DNA of 64,000 bases from Erysipelotrichaceae bacterium NK3D112 (lineage in GTDB: Bacteria; Bacillota_I; Bacilli_A; Erysipelotrichales; Erysipelotrichaceae), in assembly GCA_000701725.1 (NCBI GenBank), contig JNJQ01000009.1, positions 1 to 64,000 on the forward strand, written 5' to 3'. A program made the translations under genes and the position numbers. Below are positions 22,417 through 45,204 of the stretch, in pieces; the stretch's first letter is position 1, and the number at the start of each line of letters is the position of its first letter. The notes beneath the pieces are model-generated. The model did no database searches. It saw only the letters and a program-made list of their open reading frames with translations, and had not been told where the DNA came from.

Positions 22417-22625
22417 TTAATCACCTCCGTGAATTGCAGAATAAGTATAAATGATGTTGAGAATGAAAAATGGATGAAATCTTTTGAAATCAGAAATGTC
22501 CATGTTTTCGTTCATAACCTCCATGTACTTTACGGGGGGTGGGGCGATAATTAATTTAGTGAAATTTCCACAGCAGCAAAACTGTAAAAATCGAGGTTAA
22601 TTCCCGTTTTTATTAAGCAAAGCAA

Positions 22626-22639
22626 TGTAAGCGTTTACT
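22626..22639 (+). promoter_or_regulatory. cre-like operator upstream of the pectin operon
   Basis: TGTAAGCGTTTACT matches 13 of 14 positions of the CcpA cre consensus TGWNANCGNTNWCA. It lies 32 bases before the first gene of the block, where CcpA or another LacI-family protein would block transcription. A definite promoter upstream could not be fixed; AT-rich candidates lie at 22550-22620. Confidence 0.65.
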
Positions 22640-44806: not shown

Positions 44807-44841
44807 CGTTTTCTTGTAAAGGGTTTCAGAAATTTCACAAA

Positions 44842-44855
44842 TGAAAACGTTTTCC
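44842..44855 (+). promoter_or_regulatory. cre-like site upstream of the microprotein promoter
   Basis: TGAAAACGTTTTCC matches 13 of 14 cre consensus positions. Its centre is about 75 bases upstream of the predicted start (about 44924), upstream of the -35, a placement more compatible with activation than with blockage. Confidence 0.6.
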
Positions 44856-44889
44856 GCAAAATTTTCTGAAAATTATTTTCATAAATCCA

Positions 44890-44917
44890 TTGCTTCTGTT
44901 TCGCGGATGCCTATAAT
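44890..44917 (+). promoter_or_regulatory. Promoter of the 39-residue microprotein unit
   Basis: TTGCTT (44890-44895), 16-base spacer, TATAAT (44912-44917). Predicted start about 44924, so the leader to the ATG at 45019 is about 95 bases. Confidence 0.7.
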
Positions 44918-44923
44918 AAACAG

Positions 44924-45018
44924 TGTCAGGAAAAAGTCCTGAGATCTGATCAGAAATACGGTGCCGAAACGAGGCACAATGAGTAAAAAGTGAATTGACG
45001 AAAGTCAGGAGGCAATAT
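44924..45018 (+). ncRNA. Structured leader with possible Shine-Dalgarno switch
   Basis: Three hairpins can be read: TCAGGA-AAAAG-TCCTGA (44926-44942), GTGCC-GAAACGA-GGCAC (44961-44977) and TGAC-GAAA-GTCA (44996-45007). The 3' arm TCCTGA of the first could instead pair with TCAGGA in the SD (45005-45010), which is identical to its own 5' arm. Two mutually exclusive folds, SD open or closed, are thus possible. I do not recognise a known riboswitch class. The segment fills much of the 586-bp gap between uxaC and the next large gene. Confidence 0.5.
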
Positions 45019-45138
45019 ATGAACACACTTATGAGAGCAGCGGTTTTATTCGGAGAACCCGCGGAAAACAAAAATCTGAATGAAGAGTCAGTCTGGAACA
45101 CAGTCTTATGGGCAATCCGTTCCATCGACAGAGACTGA
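45019..45138 (+). CDS. 39-residue microprotein, unrecognised
   Basis: A short frame, MNTLMRAAVLFGEPAENKNL and on to SIDRD, with a perfect-strength SD (CAGGAGG, six bases before the ATG). It has its own promoter at 44890 and own terminator at 45163, so the transcript is only about 280 bases. The peptide is mildly amphipathic (two Trp, alternating hydrophobic and charged residues in VWNTVLWAIRSID). It has no signal peptide, no lanthipeptide-type Cys/Ser/Thr core and no run of a single amino acid that would mark an attenuation leader. It could be a regulatory peptide, a membrane-associated small protein, or a dual-function RNA. No database match can be claimed. Confidence 0.6.
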   Translation: MNTLMRAAVLFGEPAENKNLNEESVWNTVLWAIRSIDRD

Positions 45139-45162
45139 GCCAGAACTGGATATATGAAACAG

Positions 45163-45204
45163 CGGCCTGACATGCGCAAAACCCGCATGAAAAGCCGTTT
45201 TTTT
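45163..45204 (+). terminator. Terminator of the microprotein unit
   Basis: Outer stem CGGC/GCCG encloses CATGCG-CAAAACC-CGCATG and is followed by seven T. Confidence 0.75.

Follow-up and report, generated by a model that had tools for sequence, protein, structure and literature searches.

A genus-restricted microprotein gene with a conserved two-box promoter and hairpin leader in Erysipelotrichaceae bacterium NK3D112

Introduction

Carbon-controlled small proteins are known in few bacteria. In Bacillus subtilis, the short, stand-alone and carbon-regulated transcript SR1 encodes SR1P, a peptide of 39 residues that binds GapA (PMC8152036), and in Vibrio cholerae, VcdRP encodes the 29-residue VcdP, which activates citrate synthase and thereby places a small protein controlled by carbon status on central metabolism (PMC8672173). 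On the promoter side, cre boxes upstream of the -35 element activate transcription in B. subtilis, as in the CcpA-activated promoters of ackA, pta, ilvB and opuE; the activating box of opuE lies at -103, and ackA carries further conserved sequence upstream of its cre (PMC3463425).

Here, we describe a stand-alone gene of 39 codons that adjoins pectin-use genes in Erysipelotrichaceae bacterium NK3D112. It lies within a stretch of 64,000 nucleotides (contig JNJQ01000009.1, positions 1 to 64,000), which we refer to as the window. With SR1 it shares the length of the peptide and the short, stand-alone transcript, whose carbon regulation is in this case inferred from promoter boxes. However, SR1 is repressed by CcpN and CcpA, whereas the boxes described here are in an activating position, and SR1 also acts by base-pairing, of which we see no sign. 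To our knowledge, the microprotein bears no sequence resemblance to SR1P. VcdRP corresponds to the model that we propose, a small protein under carbon-status control acting on central metabolism, but it is controlled by CRP, has a base-pairing part and belongs to another phylum. Finally, the promoter resembles those of ackA, pta, ilvB and opuE in having a cre upstream of -35, and that of ackA also in having further conserved sequence upstream of it; unlike them, it has two boxes 27 bp apart and drives a microprotein gene. The four B. subtilis promoters drive ordinary enzyme or transport genes.

Results

A compact transcription unit

All elements of the unit lie on the forward strand. The core promoter (44890-44917) consists of a -35 element TTGCTT (44890-44895) and a -10 element TATAAT (44912-44917) separated by 16 bp, an arrangement that recurs as TTGnnn-16-TATAAT in most homologues, and its position predicts a transcription start near 44924. 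The Shine-Dalgarno sequence AGGAGG (45007-45012) ends 6 nt from the ATG at 45019, which opens the gene MNTLMRAAVLFGEPAENKNLNEESVWNTVLWAIRSIDRD (45019-45138, stop codon at 45136-45138). An intrinsic terminator, CGGC..CATGCG/CGCATG..GCCG with a T run, follows at 45163-45204; nearly all homologues have a terminator-like hairpin and T run 3' of the frame, with varying sequence. A first-pass annotation, made from the letters of the window, had listed a cre-like site, a promoter, a leader of some 95 nt containing three hairpins, a Shine-Dalgarno sequence, 39 codons and a terminator, and we find every one of these in its place.

Most copies of the gene have a common architecture: two boxes, promoter, 5'-end hairpin, Shine-Dalgarno-side hairpin, frame and terminator. 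The frame, the promoter spacing and two of the three hairpins of this leader reappear in relatives beyond chance, and this sequence comparison makes the gene and its architecture all but certain. The annotation had named a lack of frame or stem conservation in relatives as one ground for its refutation, and both are conserved.

A microprotein family confined to one genus

A protein search followed by a profile search recovered 15 copies of 37-41 residues, most of them 36-77% identical, in 13 of 70 congeneric genomes; two genomes, G015 and G031, have two copies each. The second G031 copy was weak at first (E 0.0078) and reached 3e-15 once in the profile, and its promoter and 5' hairpin agree with those of the family. 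The two G015 copies (L057, 5024-5146 and 7603-7728) are spaced 2.6 kb apart and flank a single predicted lipoprotein gene. Outside the genus, the profile search found no copy among 316 genomes of the order, the window copy was the sole match in a class sample of 395 genomes, and none was found in viral contigs. Weak matches in other genera were rejected: they have stops in frame (G185, G276), and two that were inspected sit inside other sequence without promoter or leader. Likewise, Pfam, NCBIfam, PHROGs and PADLOC hold no usable model for the microprotein, the only hit being a stray WW match (E 0.045); a profile search of PDB sequences gave chance-level matches (E 0.16 and above), and a literature search for earlier descriptions of the family returned nothing.

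Codon-position comparison of the homologous frames shows a predominance of third-position changes, and for the window frame against its four closest relatives, dN is 0.14-0.29 compared with a dS of 0.5-1.3. The frame comparison indicates selection on the peptide sequence along its whole length. M1, T3, P14 and W31 do not vary among the aligned sequences; for M1 this counts the L050 copy, which was entered as M where its start reads ACG and which is 97 bases away from the end of its contig. On this comparative evidence, the 39 codons constitute a protein-coding gene, previously unclassified, genus-restricted and monocistronic; the stand-alone microprotein gene proposed by the annotation is borne out by its homologous frames.

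The products carry a net charge of -2 to -5, and the best 19-residue Kyte-Doolittle (KD) mean is -0.15 for the window protein and at most 0.44 in the four proteins tested, none of which has a hydrophobic transmembrane helix. A structure model built on four sequences places helices at residues 3-11 and 20-38 with low confidence (mean pLDDT 68). The peptide is probably soluble and two-helical, as far as these predictions go.

Two boxes at fixed positions

The cre box ATGAAAACGTTTTC (44841-44854), a perfect match, is centred at about -76, and a second, cre-like sequence TTGTAAAGGGTTTC (44814-44827), which had escaped the annotation, is centred at about -103, exactly 27 bp upstream; these positions assume a start 7 nt downstream of TATAAT. 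Nine of the 14 readable promoters, that of the window included, have boxes at -76 and -103; in L057b both boxes, still 27 bp apart, are offset by one base. L049 and L051 retain one box, and L054, which is near a contig end, has none. In clade B, where it reads AAG[AT]AAGGGGTT[AT]C, the -103 sequence matches cre poorly. A search of the 70 genomes for the exact two-box pattern gave seven occurrences, every one at the microprotein gene, and none for its reversed control. The originally noted cre-like site is accordingly confirmed as conserved and fixed in position across homologues, and in lying upstream of -35 it agrees with the CcpA-activated class.

Between the -76 box and -35 there is an AT-rich inverted repeat (44868-44881; AAAGTGAAAAAAATAACTTT in clade B), possibly an UP element. 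Elsewhere in the genome, several cre-like boxes are located close to the starts of sugar transport and regulator genes, and a further perfect cre-like box, ATGTAAGCGTTTAC (22625-22638), separates two divergent genes and is followed downstream by a transport-like gene block.

A ccpA-like LacI protein is present in 69 of the 70 genus genomes, with scores below the NCBIfam family cut-off in all 70. NK3D112 itself encodes four such proteins at E 1e-20 or better, among them a full-length one (G000:C2:209149-210129, E 2.4e-72) that likewise falls below the family cut-off. Because of these scores, we leave the regulator as CcpA or another LacI-family protein; such a protein, to go by the promoter sequences, probably activates the microprotein gene.

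A leader of conserved hairpins

The leader folds at -24.5 kcal/mol (z -3.46), better than all 200 of 200 dinucleotide shuffles. Folding and homologue comparison define a 5'-terminal hairpin with the stem TCAGGA/TCCTGA (44925-44945; probability about 0.9-1.0 in the window), which begins 5-7 nt past the -10 box in 13 of 14 leaders and later in L057b. A middle hairpin, GTGCC/GGCAC (44961-44977), differs in sequence from its counterparts in several clade A leaders and is absent from clade B. The third, TTGAC-GAAA-GTCAG (44995-45008; clade A core TGACGAAAGTCA), exemplifies a hairpin that ends beside the Shine-Dalgarno sequence in 13 of 14 leaders, with no clear one in L057b. Pairing is kept across 11 distinct stem sequences of the 5' hairpin and nine of the Shine-Dalgarno-side hairpin. 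When the arms were permuted among homologues, none of 5000 permutations paired as well for either hairpin, in a test that favours own pairing through arms picked by folding and in which the Shine-Dalgarno-side arms of L057b are those of L057. Combined segment z-scores are -10.7 (5') and -7.7 (Shine-Dalgarno side) with related sequences counted as independent; these tests are not independent of ancestry, since the carriers may be related. Rfam gave no match at the gathering score. Directly after the 5' hairpin, the perfect palindrome TCTGATCAGA (44945-44954), kept in clade A and absent from clade B, is a possible operator or RNA contact site.

In the ribosome-binding region, GAG is unpaired with a probability of about 0.98 and the first two Shine-Dalgarno bases are paired in the hairpin. 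The annotation had proposed an on/off riboregulator, in which TCCTGA pairs with either of two copies of TCAGGA in the leader (44926-44931 and, at the Shine-Dalgarno sequence, 45005-45010). Both copies are present in the window, and the duplex energy there stands out against shuffles (p 0.02). However, forcing TCCTGA onto the Shine-Dalgarno sequence costs 5.6 kcal/mol, which puts the pairing at a probability of about 0.001 at equilibrium, and the complement is not kept: at the Shine-Dalgarno sequence, TCAAGG (L048) or TCAGAA (L084) replaces TCAGGA, the 5' stem of L051 is a different one, and in clade B no such complement is present. We therefore regard the pairing as an unconserved coincidence, helped by the purine-rich Shine-Dalgarno sequence, and a switch of this kind as highly improbable.

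Changing neighbourhoods and a loose link to pectin use

The copies of the window, L048 and L049 lie after uxaC and that of L084 about 2.6 kb past it, the L051 copy is followed by a sugar kinase of pfkB type resembling that of the window, and a GH28 gene lies 2-3.5 kb from the L052 copy and, by cluster membership, from those of L053, L055 and L083. The remaining copies sit elsewhere, and neighbours differ between genomes. GH28 is found in 11 of 13 carriers versus 15 of 57 non-carriers (p 0.0002), an association that is not independent of ancestry because the carriers may be related. It holds among genomes of at least 2.3 Mb (p 0.006), in which that of carriers with uxaC does not (p 0.12). The suggested pectin connection is partly supported, by the copies near uxaC or GH28 and the GH28 enrichment, but some copies lie away from pectin genes, and the link to pectin and uronate genes is a loose one.

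Discussion

The frame, promoter and hairpin leader are kept by selection, which makes the gene a good candidate for a small regulator of carbon use. In the model that we propose, CcpA or another LacI-family protein would bind the upstream boxes and raise transcription when a preferred carbon source abounds, in the manner of B. subtilis genes whose cre lies upstream of -35. Hairpins at the 5' terminus are well known to slow mRNA decay that depends on the 5' end, from which the 5' hairpin may shield the short transcript, and the Shine-Dalgarno-side hairpin may keep the ribosome site open. Since the neighbourhood changes between genomes, we argue that the peptide would function in trans, presumably by binding a protein of carbon, perhaps pectin or hexuronate, metabolism. 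We hold this reading of activation and a trans-acting peptide, as a whole, with moderate confidence; with SR1P and VcdP as precedents, the peptide's partner would most likely belong to carbon metabolism.

Much of this would still apply if the boxes bound a pathway-specific LacI-family regulator of pectin or uronate use instead of CcpA. LacI-family operators resemble cre, the genome offers four candidate proteins, and several copies adjoin uxaC, a pfkB kinase or GH28; yet the exact two-box pattern is absent from all other genes of the 70 genomes, uronate genes included, and some copies lie away from pectin genes, so that we consider such a regulator unlikely. That the transcript also base-pairs with target mRNAs, a dual function raised by the annotation, is decidedly improbable. 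Its size and layout are like those of SR1 and VcdRP, and clade A keeps TCTGATCAGA, but outside the frame the clades have no unpaired stretch in common; it is mainly stems that are kept there, their sequences drift, and we see no positive evidence for this second role.

A short, monocistronic gene for a tryptophan-containing helix might also specify a membrane-active type I toxin or an exported peptide. Against this stand a hydrophobicity too low for a membrane span, the negative net charge and the lack of PADLOC and usable Pfam matches, while the sole antisense promoter-like site near the unit (minus strand, 45297-45270) corresponds to the number expected by chance; we judge this very improbable. 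A leader peptide controlling the downstream gene, as a short frame upstream of larger genes might suggest, is scarcely credible: the unit has its own terminator, the peptide sequence is under selection along its length, and we dropped the idea because the neighbours differ between genomes.

Returning to the activation model, one could go further and picture a lineage-specific microprotein with a dedicated catabolite-activation promoter that binds an enzyme or a transporter and so resets the metabolism of pectin/hexuronate or of central carbon. Such a protein would be a Gram-positive counterpart to VcdP or SgrT that evolved separately; this we offer as tentative and rather doubtful. The comparative evidence, encompassing frame, promoter geometry and leader hairpins, is unusually complete and comes from a lineage with little genetics, and the microprotein lends itself to direct testing. 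If the activation reading is true, the two fixed boxes would represent a clean natural case of activation from an upstream cre.
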